A stretch of 64,000 nucleotides of DNA, taken from Ascidia mentula. Lineage: Eukaryota > Chordata > Ascidiacea > Phlebobranchia > Ascidiidae. Position numbers and translations under genes: made by a program. Shown in pieces: positions 16,988 to 63,877 of this stretch; the stretch's first letter is position 1, and the number at the start of each line of letters is the position of its first letter. Below the pieces are notes generated by a model. That model searched no databases and was not told the origin of the DNA. It was given only the letters and a program-made list of their open reading frames with translations. Location of the stretch: contig OX387197.1 of the NCBI GenBank assembly GCA_947561715.1, forward strand, positions 7,313,001 through 7,377,000. Reading direction: 5' to 3'.

Positions 16988-19900
16988 ATGGACAACCAGC
17001 GCACCCAACAGTATTTTGGAACTGCCGACTTTGTTGTGTTTGTGGGTGAGTATACATAAATAAAGACGTCGCAGTTGTATAATAATATTGCAGGTATAGG
17101 TGCTGTGTTGCAAAAACGACTGCAACGACAGGCACCGTAGGTGGCGCTTTAATTTCGCCAAATGGTAAATAACTGTGAGGCGTAGAATTTAACCGTGATC
17201 CTTTAATTTAGAGTTTATTTCCTATTGATTTAAAGGCAAATACACCATTTATGCTGAAAATCTCTTCCGACTTTCTTCTGTATTAAATGATCTAAGTCGT
17301 CCAATTTATGTGTGTACAATTTTATTCTTACTAAGTGCCGACACAGCAGTAAACTTATGAGTTGAAGTATGGAAAACATAATGTCTGGCGCCGCGCAAGC
17401 ACAACCTAACCATGGTCCGAGAGAGAAAACAACGCCAACGGGCCGTGCGTACTGAATTAGAAACGTGCTACCGTTTAAACTTGCATTTACACAGCCAGTG
17501 TATACACTTGTCCATACGCCATAAGAAATCTGGGCTACTGGAAATAGTGCACTCGGGGAAAATTGCCCTGCAAAGGATTTTATATTTTCCATTTTAAAAT
17601 CACTATAAAAATGTCATTTTGAGTACAATTTTCCCCGAGTGTACTATTTCCAGTAGCCCAGATTTCCTGTGTTAGTGCTATCATATGTATATCGTAACCT
17701 TTTCACAAACGCAGGGAGTTTGCTTGCGTCAGCTTTGGTGGGAGTATATTTTGCTGTGAAGGATCGACACAAGTCAAATACCGTGAACTACTATTTTGGA
17801 GGAAAGAAAATGCCACCGGTACATATAGCATATAACCCATGTTCAATATATTTAATCACGAACCCTTATATCGGTTAAATTACAGATAGCAGTTGGCGTG
17901 TCCCTAGCTGTCACTTATGTATCGGCACTCACAATAATCGGTTCGCCAACAGAGACTTATTTGTATGGGACGGTTGCCCTGTGGTATCCGTTTGCTTACA
18001 TTCCGGGGACGGTCGTTGCGGTGATGTATTACATTCCAATGTTGCACAGGCTACAAGTGAAAACAATTTATGAAGTATGTTTTACCACATGAATACGAAT
18101 ATATCAGCCAACGGCATTCATTCTGTTATTTGCAGTATTTGGAAATGCGATTCAGTTCGTCTTTCAGGAAACTGGCTTCCGCATTTGAGCTGGTGTCGAC
18201 GGTTTGTTTCCACCAACCCATTTTTCCTGAAATCGTTCAGTATTAAACGCATGTTTCTGCAGATGATCTACATGTGTTTCGCCCTACTGGTACCAGCTCT
18301 CGCGATAAACGCCGTGACTCCGATCAGTCTTCATTGGGGCATAATTTTGACCAGTGCCGTTTGCACAGCTTACACTACAGTGGCAAGTCAAGTTTTTCAT
18401 TAAGTGTACAACGCAATACAATATTTTGAATTGCGTTGGATATAAACTACTCACTAGATTGGTACAAAAACTGTGTCTCTTTGCACTAAATACAATTAGA
18501 AATATGCAACGCAGTAATATTTCATGCAATGGCATGATTGGCAGTATCGCCCACTGCGCAGGTCCTTACTTGTCGATCCCAGCTTTCGTATCGAGTTTAA
18601 AAAGAATAATCATTATTTTATTGCGTAATTTTAATATTAGTCCACAAGTGCATTTCCCACGAAAGGAAACTAAAGTTTTCGGTGTGATAACTTTTCTGGA
18701 GATAAGATGGGAGAGCAAGCCTTTGCGGCTTCAGATTCAAAGCAAACAAACTTGCCCTCTTCCACGGACCTTGTGCGAGCGATAAATGACACAAATAAGA
18801 ACGGCGCTATTTGTTGATATCATACAACGCGTAGTATAGGTGGATCGTTTATTTATTGAAATTTTTACTACTTTGCACGCTGTTAACGTAGCTTCACTGG
18901 TGTTTCTTGGGTGATTGTGTTGCTTCCCTACATTACGCGTTTGTGAAACTATCTGAATATGAGAATAAGAATATTGGCCAATACTGTTGAAGACGTTGAC
19001 ATGTTTTATTTATTTAAAACCTTTCGGCAAAAACTTATGCCATCATTAGTTGAAAATGATGCGGTTGGTCTATCTCCAGGATTATATGGAGCTGACCTGA
19101 CTAACGTCACAAGTCATAGATAAAGCTCGCTCTTTATTCTCAGAATTATGAGTATACCCGCAAATAGTGTTCGAACTGAATATATTTATTATTTTTGTAT
19201 CTTGTTCGCAAATTTAAACCAAATCCTACTTTTGGTCAGGGTGGAATCAAAGCTGTTGTGTGGACGGATGTTGTCCAGTTCGGGTTTATTTTCATTGGTT
19301 CCACGTTGGCCCTGGTAATGACAATCATCGAACTTGGAGGAATGGGAAACATTTGGAGCGCCCTGGACAGAGGGGGAAGGTTGAACTTTTTCGAGTAAGT
19401 TTAATCTATAACTTGTAAGATTTCCTACATGTACTTGTACCCAGGGCAAAAAGGTAAGACACTGAACATATCAAGCAGACGTTTTAAACAGAACTGAGTT
19501 TATAATCAGTGCTAGCTGTGTACTGCATTGAGAACCACTGATGTCAAGCATGAGTCTAATTGTTTTTGTTGTTGGTTAGTTTTAATCCAGACCCGACTCT
19601 CCGAAGCACCGCTTGGACGCTGCTGGTTGGTGGAGGAATAGGGGAGTGCGTGACAATGTGTGCGAGCCAGTCGGTGTGTCAAAGATATTTGTCCTGTAGA
19701 ACTGTTGCGGGGGCGCAAAGGTGGTTTGTGTTGTTAATTTGGTGACATTTTTACACTCCGAGTTTTTTTTTATCAAGTACAGTATGTGATGCTTACTTTC
19801 AGTTTTTTCAACATATAAGGTAGTTTGCCATTACATGAAAACAACGAACTTTCCGTAACATTATGACAAAAAGATGATCTTTGGTGTTTGTTCATATTTT

Positions 19901-24875: not shown

Positions 24876-27800
24876 ATGATGGGAAACGTCGGGCAGCAGC
24901 ATTTCGGTATCGTGGATTTCATTGTCTTTGGCGGTGAGTCGCATATTTGCTTCGGTTATAAACATGGTTTCATTGTCTTTGACTGATAAACATGGTTTGA
25001 ATTCCTAGCTGGTCTTAACTTGGCGAGATTTCGAACGAAATTATCGCTCTCTGTGCTTGCGCCTTTGCCAATTTTTAAGTATTTTTATCAATGCCCCAAA
25101 GCCAGTGAAGGCTTAACAAATGCACACAGTTTAAGAAAATTTTATTATCCTTCGCCCGTGGAGCAATCTGAAAAGGAATCAAGTCACAATTTACATTTAA
25201 TCCTTTAGTGCCTGCAGTCATTTTATTTAAACCAGATGAGTTGAAACTGTATTTAATTGTGAATTTATAAATACCAAATCCACCGTTTGTAACCCCTGTA
25301 CAAGACCAATATATTTCACTCCATGCGCCAAGAGCAAGCATTTCTTGTTTTTTGCTGATACACAGGGTAATCTGACGTCATGATACCATTTCTATGGATT
25401 TAAAGGCATTTACCTGGGGAGTACCACAAATGATGCACAACTCCCAAATACAGGGTGTTTGACCAAATTAACAATACGTTGTGGTTTCTACGTTTGCCGC
25501 AAACATTTCTCAACCATTAGCTTATCTTCAAACAGCATTTGCGCAATTCAAAATCACATTTTTCACATTTACGAGCACTTGCGTTTCTTAGCATCTCTTC
25601 TCGTGTGTGCCTTCCAGGGAATATTCTTCGCAGTAAAAGATCGAAAAAGGAACACAGTGAATTATTTCTTCGGAGGAAAGCAAATGTCGCCGGTAAGAAA
25701 ACTTCTATCAACTACAATCACTTGTATCGAACCATGCCATTTTCCCATTCAGGTTGCGGTCGGTGTCTCGTTGGCAGTTTCTTACCTGTCAGCGGTGACT
25801 ATAATCGGCGGCCCTACTGAGACATACTTGTATGGAACTGTCACAGTATGGTACATTTTCGGGTACGTTCCCGGCACCCTTGCAGCAATGATGTATTACA
25901 TTCCGCTCTTTCATCGACTACAAGTAAAGACTGTTTTCGAGGTATGATATCAAAAACATGTGTTGAACATGAGGGGTTTGGCCATATGCACAGTTGCATT
26001 GTTTGCAGTACTTGGAAATGCGATTCAATTCGCCATTCAGGAAGATGATGTCTGCCATAGAACTAATGTCATCGGTAGGTTGTGGGATGTTAAAGTTCCA
26101 TAAGACCACCTTAAAATATGGTTTATTTTTTCAGTTCCTCTATATGTGCTTCGCTATTCTTGTGCCCGTGCTAGCGTTCAACGCAATGACACCAATCAAT
26201 CTTTACTGGAGCATTATCTTAACGAGTGCCGTCTGCACAGCTTACACCACAGTGGTAAGTCAATCTACTGATAATTGCAGTACAAGTAATGTAACAACAA
26301 CACATGATTTTAAGTTTTTTACAGAGTTTCAAAATGTTTTATTGTATTTCCACAACATAACACTGTTCAAAAAAAGCCATAATATTGCAAAGCTGCAGAC
26401 AGGGTGTGTACACGCACTGTTTCGACCTGTAAGGTCTCATCAGTGCAGCTGTTGTGTGTATACCCTAGTATAGGGTACCCTGCAGATCGACGTTGACCGA
26501 AAGGTACCACAAAGTGGAGACTAGTGTGCCTGCTAGTGTGAAAGCTAGCACAGTGCCACACAACAGCTGCACTGACGAGACCTTACAGGTCAAAACAGTG
26601 CGTGTACACACCCTGTCTGCAGCTTTGCAATAACATTGTTCTTTCACGCATTAGGGTTAAATTTACTGTTACCTAAACGATGGTCGCTGTGTTTCCTCCA
26701 TACCACCCTGTATACGTTACATTCACAGTACAATCATCTAAGTCAGTGATTCCCAACCTTTTTGTGGTTGCGTACCATTTGGAGGCAAACAATTTCGACG
26801 CGTACCACCTAGTTGAGTGTTACAAAGTAACCTAGGGGATGGTGTAACGAACATTTTGGGATCACTTACGTTTTTTTCAATTCGAACTATTTCCGCAAAA
26901 TACGGAAAGGTGCTCGCGTACCACCCAGATTGCCGTCGCGTACCACCGGTTGGGAAACACTGATCTAAGTTTTCGCATTTCAGGGAGGAATAAAAGCCGT
27001 GGTATGGACAGACGTGATTCAGTTTGTGTTTATGTTTCTTGGGTCGGCCGCAGCTTTCGTAATGGCAACAATTGAAATCGGAGGATTTGGAAACGTTTGG
27101 TCTTCGCTGGACAGAGGTGGAAGACTGAACTTCTTCGAGTAGGTTCAATTTCTTCTTAGTCCGAAGCAGGAATAAATATCCTGACGAACTGCTGACAGAA
27201 GTTCTCATATTCATTATAGACTGGGTTTATTGCATATAGAAATATATGGATCTTAATTATTTATTTAACCGCATATCATATACAGTATCTATTTTGTGAC
27301 ACTGAACTTCAAATAAAAAATTCCTGGTCATCCTCACACCATTTTTTCCTTGATTTACATCACGATTAGGTGCCAATCTGGTGTACTTTTATTACATATA
27401 TTTCGCCTGAACTTGTGGGCATCAAGTAGATTGTATTTGAATAAGTGATACTGATGACGCCTGCAAGTACAGGCGAAATATATATATTTCCACAAATTTT
27501 TAAGAAAATATGTTACTAATTACTTTGTTGGCCATAAATCAAACAGGAGATTCCAAGAATACCAACTTTCGATGTACTTTTTATAGATTTAATCCGAACC
27601 CGACGATACGCAGTACGTTTTGGACGGTTTTCATAGGATCAAGTGTGTTTGAAACCCTCTCCATCTGTTCCAAGCAAACCGTGATGCAAAGATACTTGTC
27701 GTGCAAGACTGTCCCCGATGCTCAAAAGTAAGGCCTATCCTTGGGGTAACGTGTTTCCTTGCAAATTAAATACACTTACGAACGATGTTTACCAAGGGCC

Positions 27801-46825: not shown

Positions 46826-49800
46826 ATGAGTGTGAAGAAGTTTGTGTTTTTATTCCTTTGTGGAGTTTTTGGAAGTGCATTGGGAGACAAGTAAGTAACA
46901 AACAATGACTAGTACCGTAATAATCTGTTCTTCTGGCAAAGATAAAACGTAACTTTATTCACCGAATGACTAGTACAATGATGTTTTTCGGTATAAGTTT
47001 TAATTGCAATGGATAAATTGTTGCCGATGGCAATATTATGTTTGTATGATGTTTTGTACTTGATTAGGAACTGTTTTTTTTTTAATTTTTAGTTCCTATG
47101 CACTCTATGTGCCCAAAATCATACGCCCAGGATTCAGTATCCAGCCAGCTGTCTCAATCTTAAATTCTGCAAACCCAGTACAAGTTACTGTACATCTTAC
47201 TTCCGGTGACAATGTGGTTAATCTTCAAAACCAGGCAGTAATCAACTCAGGTATTTTATTGAAAGTATTCTGCATGGGCATAATTTATCATACACTATTA
47301 CACTGTTTTTCAGGTTCAAGTGCTACAATCAATGTGGGCCAGGTACTGTAACCTATGAGTTTGTTAATTGCATAATGCAAGTATTCATACGCTTGTGCTT
47401 AGGTACCACGAGGATATGCAGGATCTCACAAGTTTACTTTGAATGTAACTGGTGTCAATTCTGTGACTGGTGATACTTTGTTCACAAATCAGACCTCTGA
47501 CTTCACATTTGCTGCAAAAACTCTTTCAATTTTCATACAAACTGACAAGGCAATTTACAAACCCGGCCAAACCAGTAAGACCAAACTGTTCTGAATTTGA
47601 TTGTATGTATGCAATGACTTTTACAGTGGTCCATAATTGTCGCTGCGTTTACAACAGTAACAGTAACATACTGCATTTTCTAGTATTTGTTACAATTATA
47701 CAATAATGCTAATGTGCGTTTAAATATTTTATGTATGTTTTTATGTGGAAAAACATTTTTGAAAATTATGGTACTTTTATCAGTCAAATTTCTGATTATT
47801 TTTTTTCAGTCAAATTCAGGGCAATTGTTTTGAAACCTGATCTTCGTCCACTGATTGGGAATGTCTCTTATTCCGTAAAAGATCCTAAGGGCAACACGAT
47901 CCTGTTGGAAACCGATGTTGTTTTGGATCATGGCGTGGCTGGAAATGAATTCCCACTCAACAAAGATGCCCTTGGTGGAAACTGGAAAATCACCTACAAA
48001 ACACTGGTATATCCCAACTATAAAGTTAATGCTAGATGCTAAAACTTTGTGCATTTTAGCAATGATATATTTTTGTTGATTGCTTTTTTACTGGGGTCGT
48101 CCGACTTGATTTGCCGATACCTTTTTATTTTTTGTGTTTATGATTCATATGTGTGGTGGATTACGATTTACTATAAGTTATATTTTATGTAGGGTTACAA
48201 GGAAGAGATGAGTGTGGAGGTAAAACTTTACAAACTGCCCAAGTTTAAAGTGGAGATAGAAGCGCCAACTTACATTTACAAAGGATCTCCAAGTCTCACT
48301 GTGACACTAAAAGGAACGTAAGTGAAAATCTATGCCTTCATGTTTACACCGGCTAATGCCTGGTAACTGCATGATGGTGCAAACATAACAAAAATGTTAT
48401 TTGGGTCAGATATACATATGGTAAACCAGTCAAAGGAAAGGCATCATTGTCAATGAAACTTCTGTATTCATATGGTGGGCCAGTATTCTTCCATTCACGT
48501 GGATTTTTCGGAAACAGTGCCCCTCAGGGGAATTTCAATGAATTGTTCAAGGTATTATAATGACTATTTTCTTTCAGGCTGTTGGTTTTAAATCATTTCA
48601 GAAAAAAGGTTTAAACTATTCAATTTTAACTCCCATAAAAAATCAGTTTAACAAATAATTTCGTTATTATATTTATACAACTTTGGAAATAACCATTCTT
48701 TGGTGTTTTTTTTAGTTTAAATTACAAAGCACAAAATATTGCATTCGTATTGTGTATGATACAAAGTTTAATCTAGTCATTTTATTCTTTCGTTTTGTTT
48801 TTCTGAGTGCAAGTGTGAAAATTTTTTCAGGATTTCGATGGAGAGGGCAAAGTAGAGCTTTCACTTGACGCAGTGAAAAAGCAACTTGGCTGGGATGGAG
48901 AATCTGAACGCAAAATCAGTATCACGGGTAGTGTTACAGATGGCCAAAGCAAAGTCACCATCAACGAAACCATAGAAATTGATGCAAAGAAAACAAATAT
49001 CAAAATTGACCCACTGTACAAGCCAAATACGATCAAACCTGGACTATTCTATACTGCTTACGTAAGCCTCATCTACATCATATAATATTTTTTGTTCACT
49101 CTGTTGTTTTTCGTGTAGATTAAGGTATCGGAGCCAGATGGAAAGCAACTGATGGAAAGTGACCGTACGACAAATGCTTTGATGATTTCTAGTGAATTCA
49201 CGTGAGTGGATTGGTGATTTTTTATGTTTAATTGGTACCCTATTTTTGAAATCTGTGATACCTAATGACAAACCATCAAAGGTTGTGCAACAAATTATCA
49301 TTCTCATGCAAAATTTCACTGAGCACACTGGGTTCTAAAATAATTTTCAATTTAATGCGTAAATCTGGTTTTAATTTAACCTTTCAATGTCTTAGTTACA
49401 AAGTTTGTCAATTATTTTGATGTATGTAGGACAACCTAATAGCTATCCTATTTTTAAATACAGATCCAGGTCAACCCGTGCAAGAAATCAGACTGTAACG
49501 GAGCACGCAATACCACCCGATGGAGTTGTTGTGTTCACACTGTCAGCTCCAGAAACCGATTTTTCATCAGTGCAGTTCCAAGTAAGCATAAATGTCCACC
49601 TTTGTTGTGTTAAAAGATGTAAAAACACGCTCAGCCAAGTTAAAGGCCTGATTGAACAACAATATGGTACAACGATCCTGAAGATGTGTTGACCCAATAA
49701 TGCACAGTAACTTCACAGGATCCTGTACCAGGGTTTCTTAACTTTGGCCTTTGGTCCCCCGGGGTGCCACTAGCCTAGCCCGGATGGATTGCCTTACACT

Positions 49801-52165
49801 AAAATTCATTAAAAATGCTTTTGTTTGGTTGTTTTTTTGCTTGTCATCTGTGTTTTTTGGTTAATTGGTTGAGAAAGGGCCTTGAAGCACTAAAGGTAAA
49901 GAACCACTGCCCTAAAAACACATGCACTGGTTTCCTGTGATATTGCACTCAATATCAACCATTTTTATAACAGGCCTATATGCGCGGAACCAACAAATGG
50001 GAAGGTCAGAACTGGTCAGTAGATCGCGCTGAATCACCGTCAAATTCCTACTTGCAAATCACCACATCTGAAAGCACCACAGTTAGCCCCGGAGAAGTTG
50101 CAACAGTCACCATTCGTACTACTAGCGAAGTGTCCAGCGTTCGTATCATGGCAAGTACTTCCTGTCATTTTCAACCCGTCTCGGTTGTGTAACTCTGTAT
50201 GGAATTGCGACCACCTTTATGGGATGGGCGCGGTAGAATTTTATAAATAGCGTGTGTGTCTATGTTCAATCGTAAAAATTATGTTTTTATTGTCGACCTG
50301 GATTATCCAACATAATAATGCTTTTTTTGTCACCAGAGAGTTTTAAGTCATTTAGCTTCGAAATTGTTATAATAAGGGATTTTTAATTTTTATGATAAGG
50401 TATTTATGCTAATGTTTGTCTCTCGATCAATGCTCTATGGGGGCTTTGCTGCAACAAAGGGTTTGATGAATCGTTTTATTCTTTTTAGGAAGCGTTATTC
50501 AAACGAAGGCAAATAGAATGCTGTTCAATCGATATCGAATAACAATTTTCCGTTTAAATAAAAAAGAGATTAATGGAATTTCCATAGAAAGTTAACTTGG
50601 ACGTCTAAGCTTTAGTCAAAACCGACAGAAAGATTTGAGCCCCAAAAGATATCTCCTGTACACAAACCGAATACATTTCCAATTCAATATGTTTATTGGC
50701 GCAGTCTCTTTCCCGCGGCTCTGTTTTACAAGACGAGACGATCACCGGGACTCCAGTCAAGTCACGTGACTACTCGTTTGACGTCACTCACGCTATGATT
50801 CCGGGCGTTCAGTTGTTGGTGTCGTACGTCCGTGCGGACGGTGAGATCGTCGCCGACTACATAAAACTGACAGTGAGCACTTCACTGGAAAACCAGGTAC
50901 GTGTGACCTTTTTACTACTGGCTTAATGCACGTGGACTCTGTGGCGTGCTGTGTTTCAATATGCGGAAAGCTGTCCTTTCATGTCGCTAGTCACACGTAT
51001 TTATGCATTAGTTTTGCTGTTAAACAAACAACGCCATGATTTATCCGTCTTCCTTTGCTAACAGACCAAAGTCATCATGCACTTTTGTTTAATTGTATTC
51101 CAGCCAACGGCATTTTTGGCCCAAGTCGTTGTTCTGTAAAAAAACACCTCTTCCTCATACAGGTGACTGTCACTAGTTCAGCCACGCGTGTCGACGCCGG
51201 AACTGACGTAAGTATCAAGGTGCAGACTTCCGGTGCAGGTTCTTACGTGGGAGCTCGTGCCATCGACCAAAGCGTCCTTCTGCTAAAATCTGGAAACGAT
51301 ATTTCGCAAGAGCGAGTAAGCACCTTTCACGCTTTTATAAAATGTTGCTATAGCTTGTCGCCTAGCAACTGATAAGGTTGGTTGTTAAGCTTATTGTCAT
51401 GACGCTGTGATGGTCACGTGCCACTGTGTGAGAGTAATTGGTCGCGTTGGTGCGATTTGCTGTCGGCATGGATATATTTTATTGTGTGTTGCTTGTTACC
51501 AGGTTATGCTTTGCACCATGTCGTTTGTAGCCTCATTATTGCGCCGTGGCCTTAACGATAATCAATATATTTGTCTGTGATGAAGATACATATAACTTTA
51601 CATGTTGATAACGTCCGATATGTCTGACATATTTTCCTGTAATTTTCAGAAACTGCTATTTTTTGAAACCATCAGCTTAACCATTTTGTAGGATCCGTTC
51701 GTATATTTAAAATACAAATTTGTGTGATTTGTCATGTTTTTTTTCTCCGAAATGTAGGTGGTTACCGACCTTAGCAAGTACGAGACCGAAGAGCAACCGG
51801 ACTACTGGAGGTGGTGGTGGTGGTATCCTGTCCCATCTGGAGCCAAGGACACATCCGAAGTTTTCTCGGTAAGTTCATCTGCAAACTGTTAAGCGTGTTT
51901 ACAAAACAATGATGCGGTTTTAGTCATTTAATTTGTTGATGAAAATGCATTGGATTTTTTGATACGCAAAGTTTTTCGCCAAAAGGCGTGATTTAGTTTT
52001 ATTGGTCATTTTATACAACTACGTGTACCTTTTTGCACACTGTCTGATTTCTCTGTGTCATCTTTCAACTTATGAAATGCATTGACGAGGCAACGAACTT
52101 TGTTTTACAGGAAATGGGAATGTTGGTTCTCACCGATGCTCTCGTCTACAAGAAACAACCAGACT
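46826..52165 (+). CDS. CD109-like thioester protein, constant 5' exons 1-15
   Basis: The N-terminal half of an alpha-2-macroglobulin-family protein, closest by eye to CD109 and insect TEPs: secreted or GPI-linked proteins that trap proteases or opsonise through a thioester. Exons: 46826-46890, 47093-47250, 47314-47342, 47403-47574, 47810-48006, 48193-48317, 48410-48551, 48831-49061, 49119-49201, 49464-49581, 49974-50150, 50705-50896, 51163-51315, 51758-51868 and 52111-52165; 669 codons, all phases agreeing. A leader (FVFLFLCGVFGSALG) is followed by MG domains: SYALYVPKIIRPGFS, IFIQTDKAIYKPGQT, YKLPKFKVEIEAPTYIYKG, YTYGKPVKGKASL, LYKPNTIKPGLFYTAY, SLSRGSVL and ARAIDQSVLLLK. Exon 14 contains the odd WRWWWWYP. 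Exon 15 ends in phase 1 with a GTAAGT donor and must join one of the twelve bait exons. Intron 11 has a GC donor. The thioester itself lies beyond the window. Confidence 0.93.
49729..49909. mobile_element. Decayed hAT-like MITE
   Basis: CAGGGTTTCTTAACTTTGGC at the left and the reverse complement of CAGTGGTTCTTTACCTTTAG at the right look like inverted hAT-style termini. I could not find a matching 8-bp flank. It sits in intron 10 of the CD109-like gene. Confidence 0.45.
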
Positions 52166-52636
52166 GTAAGTCACAGCTGATTCTTTTTTATTCGTAGGGA
52201 TGGGCAAAGTACAATTTTGTTTAAAGATCACATTATTTTGAATTTTAAAGCAGTACGCACAATATGGATAGGTATCAGTGGCGTTATTACAAAAAAGTTA
52301 ACGATATCTTTCAAATTCTCACCACATAGCATAATTTATCAACAATTTGGAATGTCACGTATAATTATCCTTATTCTGATCAGCCCATCCCAACAGCCAG
52401 GTGTTATTTATCGGCCGATGCTTTTCATCACGTGATATTCAGGCTTAACAAACCGCGAACCTTGATCTTATCCTCAATTTTAATGAGTAATAACGCTGCG
52501 CAATTGCCGGGGGCGGCGTACGTGCTGTCCGAATTCACCTCATTCTATCTTAGTTTGTGGAAAGTTCAAGAAAATATTTGCACTCACGCTTGGCATATGA
52601 CAGATTAAACCATGGAAACCAAACTAATTTTTGTAG

Positions 52637-52811
52637 ATATTTTCCCGGTTTTTCAAGAATTCGCTTTTGCATTGGCTGGGCCACCGCCTGCGGCCTTGGG
52701 CTTTGCGGGTCGAGCCAATTTGGCAACAGACAGTGTTGTTGCGGCCAAAACGGCTCCGCAGCCCAGGACGTTTTTCCCCGAAACTTGGCTCTGGGATGAG
52801 AAAGTCACCGG
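52637..52811 (+). CDS. CD109-like alternative bait exon V1
   Basis: First of twelve alternatives. TTTTGTAG acceptor, phase 1 in, phase 2 out, 175 bases. Joined to exon 15 it starts with Tyr, then an Ala/Pro-rich bait (ALAGPPPAALGFAGRANL; AAKTAPQPRT) and ends FFPETWLWDEKVTG, the start of the A2M domain. The donor is GTAATT. In composition it is nearest to V4 and V5. Confidence 0.88.
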
Positions 52812-53290
52812 GTAATTTTACCAATAGATGGTGGTACATCAGTCACTGTAGCAAGTAACCTGCGAGTTTAGGTTGTTAACATGCTACAACACATGGTCGT
52901 TTAACATTGGTGGGGGGTTGCATGTCGTTTGCCAATCTAATGGTGGATCATCATTCATGCTTACAATAGTTCTGTGTTTTATCCGTGCTAAATGACATAT
53001 TTGTCTCTTGTCCCATTCCACGCAGCTACATTATGAAGCGGAAAATGTGCACAGAAATACGTTGTTTCACCACAGGGTGTTTCATGCGCAACAACTTATA
53101 TTTTAAAAAGTTTGTAAAGAAGTCCTGCCAATAGACAGTTCTGGTTAGAAACTCTCTCTGTCAAATTTGTTCGGATCATGCTAGGTGTGTTGTGACAACC
53201 GGTCCAATGCATTTAGCTATAGATAGTTTATTCAATACGCAGGACCTCTTAGAAAGTGAGTGTTTCCTATATTTTATCACGTCATGTCAG

Positions 53291-53462
53291 ACTTCGACTG
53301 GGACATTCACGTTGGAGTCGACTACGATGTCGATGACATTCCAATGTTCGCCTTGGATTATAGCTCTGAGCCGAATGGCGGAGGATTGAAGGAAAGCACA
53401 GGCGAGGTTAGGATCAGAAGCAGTTTCCCAGAAACCTGGGTTTGGACAGAGGCACTTGCTGG
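53291..53462 (+). CDS. CD109-like alternative bait exon V2
   Basis: 172 bases, phase 1 in and 2 out, acceptor CATGTCAG, donor GTGAGA (the strongest of the set). The bait is strongly acidic, YFDWDIHVGVDYDVDD near its start, then a Gly/Glu-rich part and RIRSS before FPETWVWTEALAG. It is among the most diverged members and probably one of the oldest. Confidence 0.86.
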
Positions 53463-54031
53463 GTGAGATATGTTGTGCAGTTTAGCGAGGTGTTCACTTA
53501 TTTTTAATTTGAGTTTAGTTTTTCCTTTTTGTTTGTTCGAAAGTTTAGAGATTTTATTCTGGGAGCATTTCCGTCGCAGGCGATTCGCTCAGATTTCCCG
53601 TAGGTTTACGTTTTGCAGTACCTGCAAATACATTGTCAGGTTTGACGATGCGCTGACTGTATATCTGGTTAACTCAACTACGCTCAGCTTTTACCATAGC
53701 AAAGCGACAATGCCAGTGCGTATTCGTGCGCATTGTATTTTCTACATCTCACCATGTAATATTTTAAAACGCTGTCAGTCGTTACGTTTTGTTCGAACCC
53801 GATTGCGCTTTTTTGCCGTTTGTTTTCGCGACTCTAAGTTCGTCGCAATATTCTCGAAACCCAAATCAGTGTTCTAGCGGCACTGGTCGATGTTACCTCT
53901 GTTTTGTGTTGAATGAAAAACTTGTTTGACCGCAGATGCTTTTGCCAGTCGCAGCCGGTACTCGTCCCCAAACGAGTTTTAAAGAAGAGGGATATGAACG
54001 TTGACTTATCACTTGTTACACATATGCACAG

Positions 54032-54197
54032 ATGGACACAGTATGATTCGGTTCTCGAGTCGTATAGGACGAATAATGTACAAAACAGCAGGGAAGCGCA
54101 GACGTCCTGCCATGGCAACCCCGGTACCGAGAGGGACTTCCCCTACCCCGAGAAATTACTTCCCAGAAACGTGGATTTGGGAATCCGGGACCACAGG
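54032..54197 (+). CDS. CD109-like alternative bait exon V3, polybasic
   Basis: 166 bases, phase 1 in and 2 out, acceptor TATGCACAG, donor GTGCGC, which is weak. The bait is basic: RFSSRIGRIMYKTAGKRRRP, then TPRNYFPETWIWESGTTG. The KRRR run suits trypsin- or furin-like proteases, in contrast to the acidic V2. This frame is the one that keeps the FPETW motif. Confidence 0.84.
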
Positions 54198-54894
54198 GTG
54201 CGCCCTCCATCATGTACCGTTGCCTGATTCAACGCCCACGTCGCAGTCACTGTAAAAATCATCATCAAATCATTAACACACGCCTGTCACCTCTCGTGTA
54301 GCGCGTACGTAGACTTCATCATGCTCGTTGTTAAACGTGGGAAACGCTCTTCCGCATTAGAGGTTTAATCAGTTTGTAAGCAGTGGGTGCTTATTTCATC
54401 ATCAAAAGTCAGCCAATGTATTATTTGACCCATGCGAGATCCCTTCAGACCCAATTTTTGTAATCTTTCCTAATTTGAAAAGCATTGTTCCCGAAGCATT
54501 ATCCAGCCAGGAGAATGCATCATTCGGATATAACCTTTACCATCGTCCATAGAGTATGTTCAATAGATATACCTCTCTCCATTTAAAAACCGGATTGATT
54601 TTTAACTCTGCTTGTTCGACGTTTTGGCGTTTAGGTTTTATTGCTTTTCTGATTGTGTGGGTCTGACGTGCGAAACTCGAACAATTTCGATCCTAGTTGG
54701 GCTCTGTATGTTTGACCTTGAAACGTGCCGCACTTTTTTTTATCAGTCATACTATGAGGTACAGCACGCGGAACAAAAATTGCAAAAAATAGCCTGCGAT
54801 ATTTCGGCTGTTTCCCCAAATACGTTCTTGACTCATTTTCATATGCCTATATGTGTCTCTCCCGTAACGGTAATGCAATAATCATGTCAATTAG

Positions 54895-55072
54895 ATTTGT
54901 ACCGGCGCATAGTAGACTCCGATTATTTTGGCGCCCGCTTGATGCTGGCACTTCCCGCCACATCTTCGCGACGAGTACAAGCTCCAAGTGCTCCTATTGT
55001 TGCTAAAGACGCTGCGCCCAGTGCAAGGACACTGTTTCCTGAGACTTGGCTTTGGGAGGACGCAGTAACAGG
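54895..55072 (+). CDS. CD109-like alternative bait exon V4
   Basis: 178 bases if the TCAATTAG acceptor is used, or 157 if the ATAGTAG at 54915 is used; both keep phase 1 in, phase 2 out. Bait LMLALPATSSRRVQAPSAPI, then VAKDAAPSARTLFPETWLWE and DAVTG. The donor is GTATTT, weak. Its last ~26 residues are nearly the same as those of V5, so the two are sister duplicates. Confidence 0.85.
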
Positions 55073-55531
55073 GTATTTAACAACCATCGTGGTGGCATGC
55101 CAATAACCATTGTGCGCCTATGCTTATTTTAGTTGATGCGTCCTGCTTCAGCAAGACGACAATGGGTGCCGTTTTCAAACTAAATCTTGCAGTTTGTTGT
55201 CCATTCCTCGCTTGTGGTGTTTATCTCTACGCAAGAAAGGTTCGCTATCGTCGCAGCCAAGGCATTGTCCTGCGCTAACGTGTAGCACTTCCGCGTTCTC
55301 TACGCCTAGTTAGACCGTGCACAAAGAAAAGTTTTGAACAAAGTCGGTAGTAAACGAAAAAATTAGAGCATTTCACTTTCGTGATTCAATCGTTGGGATC
55401 TCTCTCAAATCCCACCCGCTTGCACATGATACCACAACTGTGTCGTCGTTGTAGCTATAACTCTATAAATCAAGTGTTTGAATTAGATTTACATGTGCAC
55501 TATTTTGGCTTCGGAGATCGGATTTCCATAG

Positions 55532-55655
55532 ATGATCATTTACTCTTACCTGCGCGGCCCCAAACGGCGAGTTTTGCTAATGTTGCCAAAGACGCTGCGC
55601 CCAGAACAAGGAAACTGTTCCCAGAGACGTGGCTTTGGGAGGACGCAGTTACGGG
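55532..55655 (+). CDS. CD109-like alternative bait exon V5, shortest
   Basis: 124 bases, phase 1 in and 2 out, acceptor TTTCCATAG, donor GTATTT. The bait is only ~20 residues before the conserved end: YDHLLLPARPQTASFANVAK, then DAAPRTRKLFPETWLWEDAV and TG. It is the shortest bait of the array and the sister of V4. Confidence 0.88.
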
Positions 55656-55998
55656 GTATTTCACGCTGTTGGACCGGACGGGATGCGCCTGGGGAGCTTG
55701 CATTGCTTGTTTTTCGGCTTCTAGGGCCTGGAAAACAACCATGGCTGTCGTGTAAAAGTTAAAGCTTGTAATTTTCCCCGTCTCAGCATGTGGTGTTTCT
55801 CTTTTTGCCGGCAGGTCAGACAGAAGGCACGGTAAAAATTCATGCAGTGCGAATCATGTTTAGAACAAAAGGGTCTCTGGGAGCATATTGCATCCCGGGC
55901 AAAATGATCAAAAAATCCCAAAACTTTAGTTTTGCCACTTAACTCGAAATACTGCGCATAAGAAATATCCACTTCTAAACCACCCGTCTTATCCGTAG

Positions 55999-56152
55999 AC
56001 AATTACCCCGTGTATTTCGCCTTCGAGGAAAGTTTGGCGGTTGATGCAATGGCCCCAGGTGCGGTCAATAAAGGTGGCGGGTCGGGTGCTTCCCCTGTCA
56101 CACCGCGATCTTATTTCCCGGAGACGTGGCTGTGGGAGGACAAAATATCTGG
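55999..56152 (+). CDS. CD109-like alternative bait exon V6
   Basis: 154 bases, phase 1 in and 2 out, acceptor ATCCGTAG, donor GTACAC. Bait YNYPVYFAFEESLAVDAMAP with a Gly/Ser stretch (NKGGGSGAS), then TPRSYFPETWLWEDKISG. The flexible glycine run differs from all its neighbours. Confidence 0.88.
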
Positions 56153-57391
56153 GTACACACTTAGCGCATCGAGAGTAGATTACGTTGCAAGGGTTTGTTT
56201 CTGCATGCGTAGTACGGTTTCAGATTTCCTGCATGAAACGGTTGTGTTGTGCAAACGTTATTCTTCTATGCAGACTTGAGGTGAAACTAATGCTTAACAA
56301 CTTTTGTGTATGCTTGATTTTTTACTTTTCCAGCATTTTTTTGTAGCTTTGTATATTTATCGGAAAGGCGACGGGTTCCTCTTGAATTTTCGATCAGCAC
56401 TCCCCGTGATTTCCCCACATTTTCAACGCATGCCTAAAATTCCGGACGTAATGTACACGAATAGTTTCACACTTTTAGTTAAAGTCCGACAAAAACATTT
56501 GTACATCAACAAACTGAAGGATTATACACGTGTGTGTGTGTGTATATATAACAAAACTTATGGCACTTTCATAAAATAGTCGCACAGCATTACAAATGTG
56601 GTAAATTACTCATGTTCGTGGCTCCTTTGCCATTCGTACCCTTACCGCGCACATTTCAATTGAACCAATAGGAAGTTGTGCGTGGTTCCGCTGACGCACG
56701 GATTTAACAGTAAAAGTTGCAATGCTTTGTTGCAACTACTTTCAACTTGAATGATTCACGATGCTCGTTTGCGTCTCGAAGGTTGTACTTAATGACCAGT
56801 TCCAAGAATTTCAAGTACCTATTGACTGCGAATGATTTCAGGTAAAATTTGCATTTTTCCATTCACGTTACGAGAAGATTTAATGTCGATTGGATCCTTG
56901 CAAAGGAGTGTGTCGTATGCCTATTCATGCACAAGGTACTTATTGGTCGTTTGTGGAGGGTAATCCAATCCTTACCAGAACGGAAAAAACTTGCTAGCTG
57001 TTGCTTCGAAAACAACCTTGCACGCTATATTGTAGCAGCCAATTGGTCGGTTTTGTATTCGGAAGTCGTTGAAATTAGGTACTGGATTTCTTGCTTCGCA
57101 GGTTAACAAGTCTGTTGCATCGAACTTTTTCATAAAACTTGTTGCTATGCGATCCTCCGGGACCTTATCTGACCCCGCAACACCGTATTTGCTAAACTGC
57201 CTGTATTTTATGTGGTGTTTTTATATCTGTTTCATCGCCCTGAGGGTATATTTGTCACAACGTATGGAGTCACCATCGATCGAATGTTCAAGTTCAGCAA
57301 TTGAGGCCATGACGAAAACCTTGAAATAGTTTCTACAAGCTATAGCGGAGTTGCATGAACCTATGTTACATTTGCCATTCTTCCATTTCAG

Positions 57392-57551
57392 TTGTACTTC
57401 CTCCGGTCTTGGCCTTCAACGTACCCAATGCTGGGGTAGTGCTTGTAGATGAAGCGACGCGGACAGTAAGCAACACTGACTCGAATGCACCGACCCTTAC
57501 CCCAAGAAGCTATTTTCCCGAAACTTGGTTGTGGGACCATGCTGTGACTGG
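57392..57551 (+). CDS. CD109-like alternative bait exon V7
   Basis: 160 bases, phase 1 in and 2 out, good acceptor TTCCATTTCAG, donor GTAGTT. It is the only one whose junction residue is Phe instead of Tyr. The bait is hydrophobic (FVLPPVLAFNVPNAGVVLVD) then EATRTVSNTDSNAPTLTPRS and YFPETWLWDHAVTG. Confidence 0.88.
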
Positions 57552-58068
57552 GTAGTTACCTGTTTGGGCCACGTCTCTGTTTTTGTTATTTGTGTGTGTC
57601 GATGTGATTAGGCCTGGAAGTTGTAGCGCACTCTGCGATAAGTTTTTTACCTTTTTTTTTATTATGTTCTGCTTGTTTATGGGTGATTTTTTCGTTTGAG
57701 TGCTGGTTTGACCAAATTGATCTTTGCACTGCACGCCACTTGTTTTTAGTTTTTTGTGAAAAGACAATGGCTTTCATGATGAAGACGATATTTTCAGTCG
57801 AGAGAACCCTTGTTATGATGTTACCGTGGTAGTGAAATCACCCGGTGTAAAACGTATTTGGAAACTCCCCACAGCACAAAGGTCTCTGTGGGCATTCTTT
57901 TCTCTCATTTCCTTATTGACTGGTGCTTCTTACACGAAAAAGCCGCAACATTTTTCTTTTCCTTTCTCCGTTTAACCTTCGAAATCCCTTTCAGATGCAG
58001 CGCTCAATCAACCAATGCAAGCAAAAGCATTCCCTTTGCGTTGCCTATAAACTGTATACCCATTGCAG

Positions 58069-58234
58069 ATTGGTATCATTTAATGCGGGGAAGATCCTTT
58101 CCAGTGATGGATGCTGACTTATCACTTAGCGCTTCCTATTTCCCACAGAGCCACGTTTCCTTGGGCACAGTCTCCGAACCAACACCCCGACATCATTTTC
58201 CTGAAACTTGGCTGTGGATGGATTCGACGACAGG
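58069..58234 (+). CDS. CD109-like alternative bait exon V8
   Basis: 166 bases, phase 1 in and 2 out, acceptor CCATTGCAG, donor GTACTT. Bait YWYHLMRGRSFPVMDADLSL then SASYFPQSHVSLGTVSEPTP and RHHFPETWLWMDSTTG. First of the V8-V12 group, which share an aromatic start, a Ser-rich middle and (K/R/E)PTPR before the conserved end. Confidence 0.88.
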
Positions 58235-58594
58235 GTACTTCCTTAACAATGTCACAAAACAAGCTAACAAAACGGGTGTCTTGAAAGATACAGACTCCTC
58301 ACGAAGTAGCATACACCGCCATTGACATTCATTTTTGCATCACAACTCGCCATGTATCAAGTCGGTTTTCAAAATATTTTGGTCGGCGGTCAGCAGCGCA
58401 ACCAGTTCTTTTTTGTTGCTTTTGTGAATGGTTACCCTCGTTCAATGAGAAACCACCTGAACTGTCGGACCTTTCTCTGCCTTGTACTTTGTGGGTTATT
58501 TTACAAACGAGCCTTCCGGTTTTCACACTGTTTTGTAATCTTCTGGACAAAACCTGCTCAAATCTCCGCTATTTAATCGTGCTTTTTGACGCAG

Positions 58595-58829
58595 ATTACC
58601 ATTGGAACAGTTATTTGATGGGAACGGACTATAGTCCTGAATATGAATATAACTCTGACAGTGGTGAGAATGCTGGGCGTTATTACCATGATGACATCGC
58701 TCAAAATTCAGAACCCCAGTACGCGTCTTACACTGCTTCCAAACCGACGGTATCCACCGCTTCTGTGCCAAAACCGACGCCGAGATATGCTTTCCCTGAA
58801 TCTTGGCTGTGGGTGGACTCTGCATCGGG
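58595..58829 (+). CDS. CD109-like alternative bait exon V9, longest
   Basis: 235 bases, phase 1 in and 2 out, acceptor TTGACGCAG, donor GTACTT. A long Tyr/Asp/Glu-rich bait (YYHWNSYLMGTDYSPEYEYN; SDSGENAGRYYHDD) is followed by Ser/Thr-rich sequence and VPKPTPRYAFPESWLWVDSA. It is the only member with PESW instead of PETW. The acidic tyrosines could be sulfated (inference). Confidence 0.88.
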
Positions 58830-59460
58830 GTACTTAAACGCTCAATATTTTAACACATCGCTTCAAAAGGTGGCCAGGCGGATGTCTGTATGATACGAAC
58901 TCCGCCTGGTGGCCTCCATAATAGCACGCATTCATTTCCATCCACAGTGTTCAGTGGTCATTAACGGACAAGCGCAACCATTTTTGTGTTGTCTTTTCTT
59001 TTTCATTTCTTTTCTGTCAGCACTTTACACGATATTTGTTGTTTGGTTTTCTTCGAGAAATGTACTTGACTCTGAAAGTCGGGTTTCTGTTGAAAAGTCA
59101 CGCGTCATCTTAACCTTTGGGCTGGTGAATGGATCGAGCTCATACTTGATGCCGGGATTATACAACACCACTGCTTCGAAAACAACGAGTAGCGTGCACG
59201 CGATTACCTGGGTGTACAATTGATCTGACTGTATATAACCTAACAACGAGAGTCATGACAACGAGAGTTGGTTTCAACGCCCGCCCTTAAATTCCCTCGT
59301 TTCACGATCGAAATACATTGGTGTGTGGAACGCTTTTTGGTTTCTTTGTTTACATGAAAACCAACAGTACATGGGAAGGTTGTACGCACACCATAACGCA
59401 GCAACGCTAAAATTGACACTATTTTGGTATCACTCATTAAACTGTCGTTTCATGTTACAG

Positions 59461-59644
59461 ATTGGCGCAAAAGGTTTTACAAATATGGTGAACCCGTATT
59501 CATGTTTGGATCAATTTCAGAAGACGTCATGCTTTCTAAAGAATCGTCTATCTCCCCAAACAGTGTCTCCACCTCCTCTGTGTCTCGACCGACACCAAGA
59601 TCTTATTTTCCAGAAACTTGGTTGTGGTCGGACGCCATATCGGG
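59461..59644 (+). CDS. CD109-like alternative bait exon V10
   Basis: 184 bases, phase 1 in and 2 out, acceptor CATGTTACAG (shared with V11 and V12), donor GTACCT. Bait YWRKRFYKYGEPVFMFGSIS, then a Ser-rich run (KESSISPNSVSTSSVS) and RPTPRSYFPETWLWSDAISG. Confidence 0.88.
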
Positions 59645-60189
59645 GTACCTTGACAACAAAAATTTGCCAGCAGAAGTTTTTGTCTCATTAACCCACCTGT
59701 CATTCACACAACTCATAACGAACTTTTTTTCTATACATCGTCATGTGCAAATCATTTTAACGAACGTAGGTACCACCAGCTTGTTTATTGGGTCGGTTAC
59801 CCGCTTAAGTTATTGGAATGGAAAACTTTTTTTCGGAACTGCTTCTGTGCATTAGTCCAATTTGCGATTTGCCCCCATTCCCGAATTTCAAGGCGCGTTT
59901 CGTCCAACAACAACAACCACTGCCGTTTTTTTCTCTTTGCCGACATTATGTTGGTTTACAAACAATCAAAACTCAACGTTTTTTAATTTCTTTGAAATGG
60001 GAATTGCGTTGAATATTCTTGATCACCGGTGTTGCTGGACGATAAAGCAGGTTAACTGAAAAATTCAGGTGTGACAAACCCTTTCTTGCTCCCTTCAGTG
60101 CAGAATTGGGAAACAAGCCAATGTATGGATGGTGTTAATGTTAAAACTGTCGCTTTTCTAACAGCTGATCAAGTCAGTTTTTAGTTCCG

Positions 60190-61615
60190 GTTGGTAATGT
60201 GTTCCTCCGGTAACGGTGGATCGCTGATGGTGTTGCTTATATAGGATAACTGAGAAGTTTTCTTATCGTCGACACCAAAGAAACTATATACAGAGAATCT
60301 GTATCTATAATTTCTTCCGTCACTTCACAGTAAAAACAAACCCATTGCTTTATCGTAGTTCCAATATTTTGCCAGCTTTGAAAATTCTCTTTTCGATTCA
60401 GCTGTTCAGATTCAAAATTATTATCTGCTCAATACCAGCGAACACCACCTTGTTCCTTTGTGTTGAATAGTCTATAACTGAATGTTGGACAGTCAATTCT
60501 TTCCTGAGGCTTACTTTTTCGATCAGAATGGAGGCCCTGCGCTCCTCAATGTCCTTCATTTCATGTTACAGATTATCCATACACGTGGAGGTTCATGATT
60601 GATGATGCTTACTATAACCCCATCGTTGAAGATGCTTCCGATGTGGCTTACTATAACTTGGCCCCCAGGCCCGCATCTTCCCTCTCCTACGCTGTCCCCT
60701 CCTCCTCGGTGACCAAACCGACACCAAGATCCCATTTCCCTGAAGCTTGGCTGTGGTCGGACGCCGTATCAGGGTACTGTCATTTACTGGTCATAGCAGT
60801 TTCACAACACATTCTATACGGATTCTTTGTAATATGTTCGTCAAGTTCTTTTCTATCAGCTCATTAAGTCAGTTTCTAGTTCCAAACTTTTCATGGACGA
60901 GGTCAACGCCATCATGTTTGCTTTATCATTTTTTTTTGTTGCGTCCAGTGTAAGGCTAACTAACATAATTTCAGTCTAATTTTTGGGTTATCTCATTTTC
61001 GAATGCAACAAGCGTTCCAACTTTGCGACCACTTCTGTACACACAACCTCCAATCTTTGCCGAATCAGTCCCCACCTTGTGGCGTTTTGTGAAACTTAGA
61101 TTAACTTCACTTTAGTAACTCACTAATACTGATTCCACCGGAAAAGTCCTGAAAGAAGATTGTACGTACACAATCAAGGAACATCACAAAAATTCACTTT
61201 GATTTGGTTGGTAATGTGTTCCTCCGGTTACGGTGGACCGCTGATGGTGCTTGTTGGTTATATAGGATAAATGAGAAGTTATCATATCATCCACACAAAA
61301 AAACTATATACAGAGAATCTGTATCTATAACTTCTTTCCGTTATACTTTACCCATTGGTATATCGTAGTTCCAATGTTTTGCCAGCTTTGAAAATTCTCT
61401 TTTCGATTCAGCTGCTCAGATTCAAAATTATCATCTGCTCAATGCCAACGAACACCACCTTCTTCCTTGGTGTTGAATAGTCTATAACTATATGTTGGAC
61501 TGTCAATTCTTTCCTGAGGCTTACATTTTCGATCAGAATGGAGGCCCTGCGCTCCTCAATGTCATTCATTTCATGTTACAGATTATCCATACACGTGGAG
61601 GTTCATGATTGATGA
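60190..61615. repeat. Tandem duplication around V11 and V12, ~1010-bp offset
   Basis: The ~400 bases before V11 (from TTGGTAATGTGTTCCTCCGG near 60190) recur before V12 (near 61206) with few changes, including ACTATATACAGAGAATCTGT and ATGGAGGCCCTGCGCTCCTC. The downstream introns also share CAAACTTTTCATG (60880 and 61899). This marks the youngest exon duplication in the array. Confidence 0.9.
60572..60773 (+). CDS. CD109-like alternative bait exon V11
   Basis: 202 bases, phase 1 in and 2 out, acceptor CATGTTACAG, donor GTACTG. Bait YYPYTWRFMIDDAYYNPIVE and DASDVAYYNLAPRPASS, then KPTPRSHFPEAWLWSDAVSG; here PETW has become PEAW. The first 15 residues are the same as in V12. Confidence 0.88.
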
Positions 61616-61762
61616 TGCTTCCGAAATGGTTTTATATGACTCTGTCCCCATGTCCAATTCTCTCTCCGTCTTCACCGACTCCGCCTCCGCCTCCTCTGTG
61701 CCCAAACCGACACCAAGATCTCATTTTCCAGAAACTTGGCTATGGTCGGACTCCGTATCAGG
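61582..61762 (+). CDS. CD109-like alternative bait exon V12
   Basis: 181 bases, phase 1 in and 2 out, acceptor CATGTTACAG, donor GTACCT. Bait YYPYTWRFMIDDASEMVLYD and SVPMSNSLSVFTDSASASS, then KPTPRSHFPETWLWSDSVSG. It shares both ends with V11 but has a different middle, so the bait part diverged faster than the flanks. Confidence 0.88.
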
Positions 61763-62470
61763 GTACCTTGACTCGCTTTTAATCGCAATATCACAACGCT
61801 ATTTGCAATTAGACGGAATCTTGTCATTTCTCACATTCATTCTTGCACCAGCCTGTTTGTCATGCACACTGTTGTTCACTACGGGAAATTGAAGTCACAA
61901 ACTTTTCATGAACAAGTAGCAAAGCGCTCTTGCTTCTCTCATCATTGTGCGTTAAATGCATGACATCAAATGGATGAACAAATGAAACTATTGTATATCG
62001 TCGTGTGACAATAATTTAAATTACACCTACGTCACTGGCATATGCTGTCCAATGCGCAGATTTGTCCCCCTGCGGAACGTAAAGTCCATGTGCCTAAAGC
62101 GGCCGCGGGTAATTAACAGGAGAGCTTTCCGACTACTGTTTGCAAAATTTGATGAATTTCGTTTTTTCTGAACCGAACGCCGACCTTGCGGAAATTCGCA
62201 AAACAAAATTAAACTCGGTGGTTTCAGTCCTATGATGTGTTGAACTGTTCGGGATCATTTTTATATGTGATATTGATTCAACGATCAGTTCATAAGCAAC
62301 GTGTCGTATCACAGTCCTCTTGAAACCATGCCTAAAAACTACTGAGAAGGTTAAAAGAGGTATTCGTTTGTTCAATCACCGTCGTTATCAAACTTAACCA
62401 ACATCTCACTGCATGTTGCATGAAAAATCGCCAGTGTTTGCATGCTGTACGTAATTGCTGCTCCTATATA

Positions 62471-62509
62471 TTATTATAATTATTTTAATATTATTATTAT
62501 TATTATTAT
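62471..62509. repeat. (ATT)n microsatellite
   Basis: A short run of ATT/TAT units in the intron between the last bait exon and the next constant exon. Confidence 0.85.
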
Positions 62510-62801
62510 GATGCACGTGTTTGGTAATGGTTTTGTTTATATAAGTTTTTAAGAAAATTTTTTGTGTCTATGCGTTTAAAAAATTGGGAATAAAAATGGT
62601 AAAATTTTTTTGATAATTTTCTCCACTAAATCCCGTGAGACATTCTTATAACCTCCCTCTCCCATTGTAACCACGTTTAACATCTTTAGTTTAAAGCCCA
62701 AGCACTTAAATGCCTACTGACCATTTCACGAAACCCCTTAAGTGACACTTAAGTGCGGTTCGTCCCAACATCTCAAGCAATGTCCTTTTGTATGTGAACA
62801 G

Positions 62802-63877
62802 TGCTGACGGTTCAACCTACTTCAATACCACTGCCCCTGACACGATCACGTCGTGGATCTTAAGTGTTTTCTCTGTTTCTGACCAATACGGACTTGGATT
62901 GGCAGATTCTTTTAAGGTAGGTCTTTGGTGGTTAAAATAGGAGGATCGTTGTTTGCTTAAGACGAGTGGATGTGGTCGGTCGGTCCATCTAATGGTCCTA
63001 ATAGTTATTTTATTAAACTTCTTTGATCAAAGCCGAAGCTAAGATACTGGTAGTCGACTCCCAAGTTTTTTGAAATTAATAAACTTCAAGCTATCTCTTT
63101 TAAAGAAAAACCTACACTTTAATGTGAATGCAGTCTATATATTGTACAGTCGGCACCATGCATTTTCATTTCAATGAAACCTCTAATTTTCATAACCAAC
63201 ACAAAAAATACATTTCTGAGTTTTTTCCAAATTTCCTATGCGATGTTTTAAAGCTCATTATATGCTCCAAATTGACAGCATTTTGGCGGTTACTTTTCAG
63301 TTATAACTGACATTTTATTGTCCATGCTGTTTAGGTTTTACAGATTTAATCATATTTGTTTTGCTTTCGTCCCACAGATCACAGTTTTCCGCCAATTCTT
63401 CGTTTCGCTCAACTTGCCACTGAAAATCACACGTGGAGAAATTATCATAGTTCAAGCGATCATCTTCAACTACTTCAAAACCGATTTGGCGGTAAGATGT
63501 TGGTTGAAGCTATTCGTTTCTCAAATTGGTTGTGTCGTATTCTGATTCTGTTAAACTTCCCTTGTTTGGAAAAGTAGTTCGTTGTGCAAGTCCTTGTTTA
63601 TTACATTGCTTCCACGTTACAATGTACATTCACTAAACAATTCCCCCAATAACCACAGGTTGAAGTTACACTTAGTGACAGCGGTAACTTTGAGCTGATC
63701 AGGCCGGGTGACGATCCGCTTGCAGCCGGTCCATTCCGGATTATCGACGTTCCGGCTGACGGTGCAGTCTCTGTGAAGTTTCCCTTGCGCATGCTCGCTC
63801 TAGGGGAAGTACCCATCACCGTATCGGCGGTCTCTGAGTTTGCTGGTGACGCCCTCACACGCAAGGTTTATGTCAGG
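62802..63877 (+). CDS. CD109-like thioester protein, constant exons after the bait array
   Basis: Three exons in frame: 62802-62916, 63378-63491 and 63659-63877. The first supplies the single base that completes the Gly left by every bait exon and reads ADGSTYFNTTAPDTITSWIL, then SVFSVSDQYGLGLADSFK, the continuation of the A2M domain. The next reads ITVFRQFFVSLNLPLKITRG with FNYFKTDLA, and the third has GEVPITVSAVSEFAGDAL. These match the order in human CD109. The exon ends with a GTAAGA donor 123 bases from the window edge, so the thioester, receptor-binding and C-terminal parts lie beyond it. Confidence 0.93.

Follow-up and report, generated by a model that had tools for sequence, protein, structure and literature searches.

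Can a single gene present twelve different baits to proteases, and what would ensure that only one of them enters each protein? The question is raised by a 64,000-nucleotide stretch of the genome of the phlebobranch tunicate Ascidia mentula (NCBI GenBank assembly GCA_947561715.1, contig OX387197.1, positions 7,313,001 to 7,377,000 of the forward strand), hereafter the window. The mitochondrial COX1 of this genome stays open when AGR is translated as glycine, at sites where glycine is conserved, in keeping with the ascidian code. A thioester macroglobulin gene of CD109 type holds there, between two constant exons, twelve tandem exons (cassettes) spanning about 9 kb. The array is real, intact and frame-locked: twelve alternative exons, each with bait and plug, in the CD109 gene of a chordate. 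Its exon anatomy makes mutually exclusive splicing very likely, and we hold with high confidence that such splicing is the best explanation for the array. The cassettes and the constant exons bordering them, the latter placed by phase and by alignment to CD109, are listed in window positions.

52111..52165, plus strand: last constant exon 5' of the array, EMGMLVLTDALVYKKQPD, donor phase 1
52637..52811, plus strand: bait exon 1
53291..53462, plus strand: bait exon 2, acidic, net charge -8
54032..54197, plus strand: bait exon 3, basic, net charge +9
54895..55072, plus strand: bait exon 4
55532..55655, plus strand: bait exon 5, the shortest, 42 amino acids
55999..56152, plus strand: bait exon 6
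57392..57551, plus strand: bait exon 7
58069..58234, plus strand: bait exon 8
58595..58829, plus strand: bait exon 9, the longest, 79 amino acids
59461..59644, plus strand: bait exon 10
60572..60773, plus strand: bait exon 11
61582..61762, plus strand: bait exon 12
62802..62916, plus strand: first constant exon 3' of the array, beginning GADGSTYFNTTAPDTITSW, acceptor phase 2

Every cassette has an AG acceptor and a GG/GT donor, is entered in phase 1 and left in phase 2, and keeps a stop-free frame (12/12). The variable part preceding an invariant arginine is 26-63 residues long and the entire exon encodes 42-79. An earlier sequence-only reading of the window had proposed these acceptors and bordering exons, baits of 20-60 residues followed by an FPETW-type segment, and twelve proteins from one gene. 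Its twelve acceptor coordinates are all correct, each being the first base after AG in one common phase, and its bordering exons agree with phase and with the human CD109 alignment. The layout of a variable bait before the FPETW-type segment also stands, with the lengths corrected to those given above. The phase logic, the intact splice sites, the constraint on the conserved exon ends and the homology to CD109 strongly support a single gene in which the bait exons are twelve alternatives; that all twelve are spliced we infer.

The length of all twelve cassettes is 3n+1. Chance would give this about twice in a million if the exons were independent, but duplicates are not, and more weight is put on other tests. 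The frame was computed for zero, one and two cassettes. Inclusion of exactly one keeps it for each of the twelve, still open when ten downstream exons are joined, while skipping of the array leaves 38 codons of joined sequence before a stop. Two cassettes taken in array order run into a stop in all 66 pairs within the stretch examined. The next boundaries outward from the array have intron phase 0. Given the asymmetry between entry in phase 1 and exit in phase 2, a full-length product is expected to contain exactly one cassette. Exon 52111-52165 would be joined to a single cassette and that cassette to 62802-62916; transcripts with none or two would meet a premature stop and presumably undergo nonsense-mediated decay, so that one-cassette messengers would give the full protein.

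The array is sharply delimited in the genome. The motif F-P-E-x-W, where x is T, S or A, occurs twelve times in the window, always on the plus strand and never on the minus strand. Across 195.8 Mb (79 contigs) the degenerate pattern F-P-E-x-W-x-W matches 13 times, twelve in the array and once on contig C70, and the reversed pattern gives 0 matches in the same scan. A profile of the 21-residue C-terminal anchor of the cassettes was built from the twelve, for which it is circular, and scores them at 49-70 bits and the C70 paralogue at 15.7; searched in six frames over 93 kb (the window and the 29 kb that follow it) for a thirteenth or decayed cassette, it finds nothing else at or above the threshold of 8 bits. 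Chance or mis-framed open frames are ruled out by the common phases, the stops in 66/66 pairs and the gap between 49 and 8 bits. The sole other genomic match lies on the minus strand at about 5541 of the stretch taken from C70, within a macroglobulin or complement-like gene, and is preceded by RRRHR. The 10 kb stretches fetched at other macroglobulin loci, whose genes were not modelled and which could have arrays further away, hold no similar array: C70 has a single FPETWIW site, and the surroundings of the four hits on contig C69 have no such site.

Bait and plug in one exon

In all twelve cassettes the variable bait is followed by the anchor motif R-x-x-F-P-E-x-W-x-W. Residues R44, F47, P48, E49, W51, W53 and G59 (numbering of the first sequence) are invariant and Y1 nearly so. 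The variable parts before the arginine range in net charge from -8 to +9 and in isoelectric point from 4.1 to 12.0. Their 515 residues have no N-glycosylation sequon, with 2.6 expected from shuffling (p = 0.049).

The function of such a layout can be approached from human A2M, which according to Harwood et al. (PMC9352918) still works when GGS triplets take the place of its whole 39-residue bait, provided that cleavage sites are restored. The authors further describe a post-bait segment, with partly conserved R732 and F735, that threads a channel; cleavage empties this channel and so triggers collapse. Mutation F735A disturbed the native state. The R-x-x-F spacing of R732 and F735 is the invariant spacing of all twelve cassettes, suggesting that each cassette encodes a bait together with its plug, a swappable trigger module. 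The plug R-x-x-F-P-E-x-W-x-W would hold the native protein closed. Cleavage of the chosen bait by a protease would let the plug retract and the protein collapse, exposing the thioester, which would then attach to the protease or to a surface close by. Since the twelve baits differ in charge, length and residues, a single receptor could sense twelve partly different sets of proteases, and twelve protease sensors are probably within reach of one gene.

Proposed choice of a single cassette

Several points weigh against this picture of twelve exclusively spliced trigger modules. In the A2M work just cited, mutant R732A triggered normally, indicating that the arginine is not needed for the trigger, and extension of the bait by 10-20 residues favoured collapse; the 63 residues before the arginine in exon 9 are long next to the 39-residue bait of human A2M. 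The 515 bait residues have no cysteine, but the constant part is just as poor in it (3 in 1191), and this absence, no longer taken as a hint of selection, carries little weight. Some cassettes may never be used. Their donors match U1 at 4-7 of nine bases, compared with 5-8 of nine for 24 modelled constant donors (Mann-Whitney p = 7.8e-5), and have G at +5 in 2/12 versus 16/24 (p = 0.012); polypyrimidine tracts of the acceptors are alike in cassettes and constant exons (p = 0.93). Weak donors count in favour of the picture as a fit to regulated exons, though rarely used ones would have them too. No intronic 6-mer is common to the array beyond chance. Four tests for pairing between a docking site and selectors gave values reached by 37, 74, 87 and 65 of 100 Markov-generated controls; they covered ungapped helices between a docking site, sought in both flanking introns, and selectors up to 450 nucleotides on either side of the cassettes, and have low power in a single genome. 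Neither the pairing tests nor the 6-mers give a signal that would explain the choice of exon.

Among mechanisms that could enforce the choice, steric exclusion through short introns is unlikely given that the introns within and flanking the array, thirteen in all, measure 343-1239 nucleotides, and incompatibility of U2 and U12 splice sites was rejected as none of the twelve cassettes has a U12-like donor. Both results leave more room for competing RNA pairing as in Dscam, with one docking site and a selector per cassette, which is compatible with exclusive splicing and is the best-known mechanism for large exclusive clusters. Ungapped complementarity in this one genome, no better than that of the Markov-generated controls, speaks against it with low power, and we regard Dscam-like pairing as unlikely. 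Inverted repeats within the two flanking introns are short (10-12 nucleotides), and no Rfam family reaches its gathering score in the window.

The weak donors could also mean that function is confined to one or a few cassettes, the remainder being duplicates rarely spliced in. A precedent exists in the snail Biomphalaria, where only four of eight predicted variants of BgCD109 are seen in transcriptomes according to PMC7016707. Against such an array of relics, splice dinucleotides, phase and open frame are kept in 12/12 cassettes and the region has no degenerate copy above threshold. Moreover, the nonsynonymous rate (dN) over the last 16 codons is below the synonymous rate (dS) in 43/43 estimable pairs of anchors, with a median dS of 1.44 (the other 23 of the 66 pairs are saturated or failed). 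The anchors look constrained, and most cassettes appear old yet under constraint, making a few-exon gene quite improbable. Inclusion of several cassettes as repeats of one long protein, a frequent outcome of tandem exon duplication, can practically be discarded: 3n+1 lengths shift the frame into a stop in every one of the 66 pairs, four cassettes would restore it only if no stop came earlier when any adjacent two already shift it, and the macroglobulin chain would have room for one plug to judge from the human A2M work (PMC9352918).

How the array may have grown, and the rest of the gene

The sequence of the cassettes gives hints of how new baits may arise. Neighbours in the array have more similar anchors (Spearman 0.35; 27/5000 permutations as high). 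Units 11 and 12 are identical at 217/231 nucleotides of the upstream intron (94%) and at 32/32 of the first aligned exon bases, fall to 50/75 aligned bases with 29 gap columns in mid-bait, and match at 60/68 in the anchor and at 37/60 bases of the following intron (62%). The common 5' tract, at 60190-60610 and 61206-61620, stops inside the exon. This looks like a duplication or conversion tract whose end falls within the exon, one route to a chimeric bait. The differences between baits 11 and 12 were dropped as proof of positive selection, as flanks of 94% identity on the 5' side and 62% on the 3' side mean that the halves of the unit differ in age. A bolder scenario, which we consider a long shot, would see CD109 as a germ-line encoded repertoire of cell-surface protease sensors: haemocytes would each commit to one of the twelve baits, perhaps randomly, making the blood a mosaic of baits, and new ones would arise by partial-unit conversion with breakpoints inside exons.

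The constant exons placed outside the two that border the array are the following.

47093..50154, plus strand: ten upstream constant exons, including MG2 and MG3, with AG/GT boundaries and consistent phases
47093-47250, 47314-47342, 47403-47574, 47810-48006, 48193-48317, plus strand: upstream exons 1-5 of those ten
48410-48551, 48831-49061, 49119-49201, 49464-49581, 49974-50154, plus strand: upstream exons 6-10 of those ten
50705-50896, 51163-51315, 51758-51868, plus strand: constant exons of the A2M_BRD region, placed by Pfam A2M_BRD (5.7e-18) and CD109 alignment
63378..63491, plus strand: constant exon of the A2M domain following 62802..62916, from the phase-consistent model
63659..63877, plus strand: next constant exon, from the phase-consistent model and CD109 alignment

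By its sequence, the gene is a CD109-type thioester macroglobulin of the alpha-2-macroglobulin family. This type, already proposed by the sequence-only reading, is borne out by Pfam domains, the thioester motif and the closest solved structure. Scored on three separate conceptual pieces in genome order, the domains MG2, MG3, A2M_BRD, A2M, TED_complement and A2M_recep are all above cut-off (E 7.5e-17 for MG2 and 4.4e-13 for MG3, both within 47093..50154). The gene runs past the window end, and coordinates there are extended from it: GCGEQ occurs as RKPSGCGEQNM in exon 64615-64810, and a hydrophobic tail ends at 70436. Among solved structures, ranked by one query carrying bait 7 and not by a tree, human CD109 (PDB 8s3o) is first at 466 bits, followed by A2ML1 (329), A2M (313), TEP1 (258) and the best C3 (191). 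The C-terminal pieces align to residues 1264-1435 of CD109, Cys-rich end included (E 4.6e-7). The hydrophobic end VVWFVCFLCTLLALITLH follows this Cys-rich stretch, in a part of the model whose last junctions are not placed, and is a candidate signal for a glycosylphosphatidylinositol (GPI) anchor, which would hold the predicted thioester protein at the cell surface. No signal-peptide exon was found in the gene model, and one small exon between 50154 and 50705 is not placed either, which leaves the earlier numbering of 52111-52165 as exon 15 unconfirmed.

Exon 51758-51868, the second constant exon upstream of the array, encodes DYWRWWWWYPVPSG; this tryptophan-rich stretch stems from a TGG repeat and is absent from human CD109 in the alignment. 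Elsewhere in the window, an open frame on the minus strand (1782-3131) has a NACHT domain of an innate-immunity type NTPase (Pfam 1.4e-16 on its first 301 residues) and another on the same strand (13878-14366) encodes Archease (PF01951, 7.1e-43). Fragments of a sodium:solute symporter lie at 18077-18403 and 25459-26473 (Pfam SSF on a piece of 25459-25947), and their similar membrane segments suggest a tandem duplicate. A lectin-like Laminin_G_3 stretch is found just downstream of the CD109 gene at extended coordinate about 74250 (Pfam 1.4e-9).

Known bait arrays

Human CD109 (8s3o) is closest to the Ascidia gene over the central and C-terminal regions, with the same position of bait and FPETW and a Cys-rich tail; it is not known to have a bait-exon array. 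In tunicates, a GPI-anchored alpha-2-macroglobulin of Ciona intestinalis was reportedly described by Hammond and colleagues in 2005 (cited in PMC12939704), and is likely an orthologue of the Ascidia gene.

Arrays of this kind are known from invertebrate thioester-containing proteins (TEPs), and the Ascidia gene has their hallmarks: exons placed in tandem where the bait lies, all of one phase, with a variable start and a conserved end. Duval et al. 2020 (PMC7016707) describe in Biomphalaria glabrata BgTEP2 a 30 kb array of twelve tandem exons that are mutually exclusive, all variants being recovered from transcriptomes. As in Ascidia mentula, these exons of one thioester gene encode the equivalent of the bait, differ in length and sequence and share a conserved C-terminal part. 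BgTEP2 is however a molluscan gene of insect-TEP type, whereas the Ascidia array is of chordate CD109 type, occupies about 9 kb and is known from the genome alone. Biomphalaria BgCD109 is nearer in type, with alternative exons in the same position and a GPI signal, but has eight predicted variants, not twelve. The same paper cites six mutually exclusive bait exons giving seven isoforms in Chlamys farreri CfTEP, five isoforms differing in the bait region in Drosophila Tep2 and six bait-region variants in Fenneropenaeus chinensis A2M-2, alternatives like those of Ascidia mentula and none of them from chordates.

Both the kind of array and the number twelve are thus already known, from the TEP-type BgTEP2 of a snail, and the novelty seen by the earlier reading narrows to the type of gene: the titles and abstract beginnings listed from the open-licence literature name no twelve-member CD109-type array, nor a bait array from any deuterostome, tunicates included. 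Within that search, a bait array in the CD109 of a chordate appears to be novel. It would supply twelve natural modules of bait and plug with which protease sensing by macroglobulins could be studied. If it is spliced as proposed here, tunicates, the sister group of vertebrates, diversify CD109 exactly at the protease cut site, matching a snail TEP in both manner and scale, and bait diversification through exclusive exons would be either ancient or strikingly convergent.

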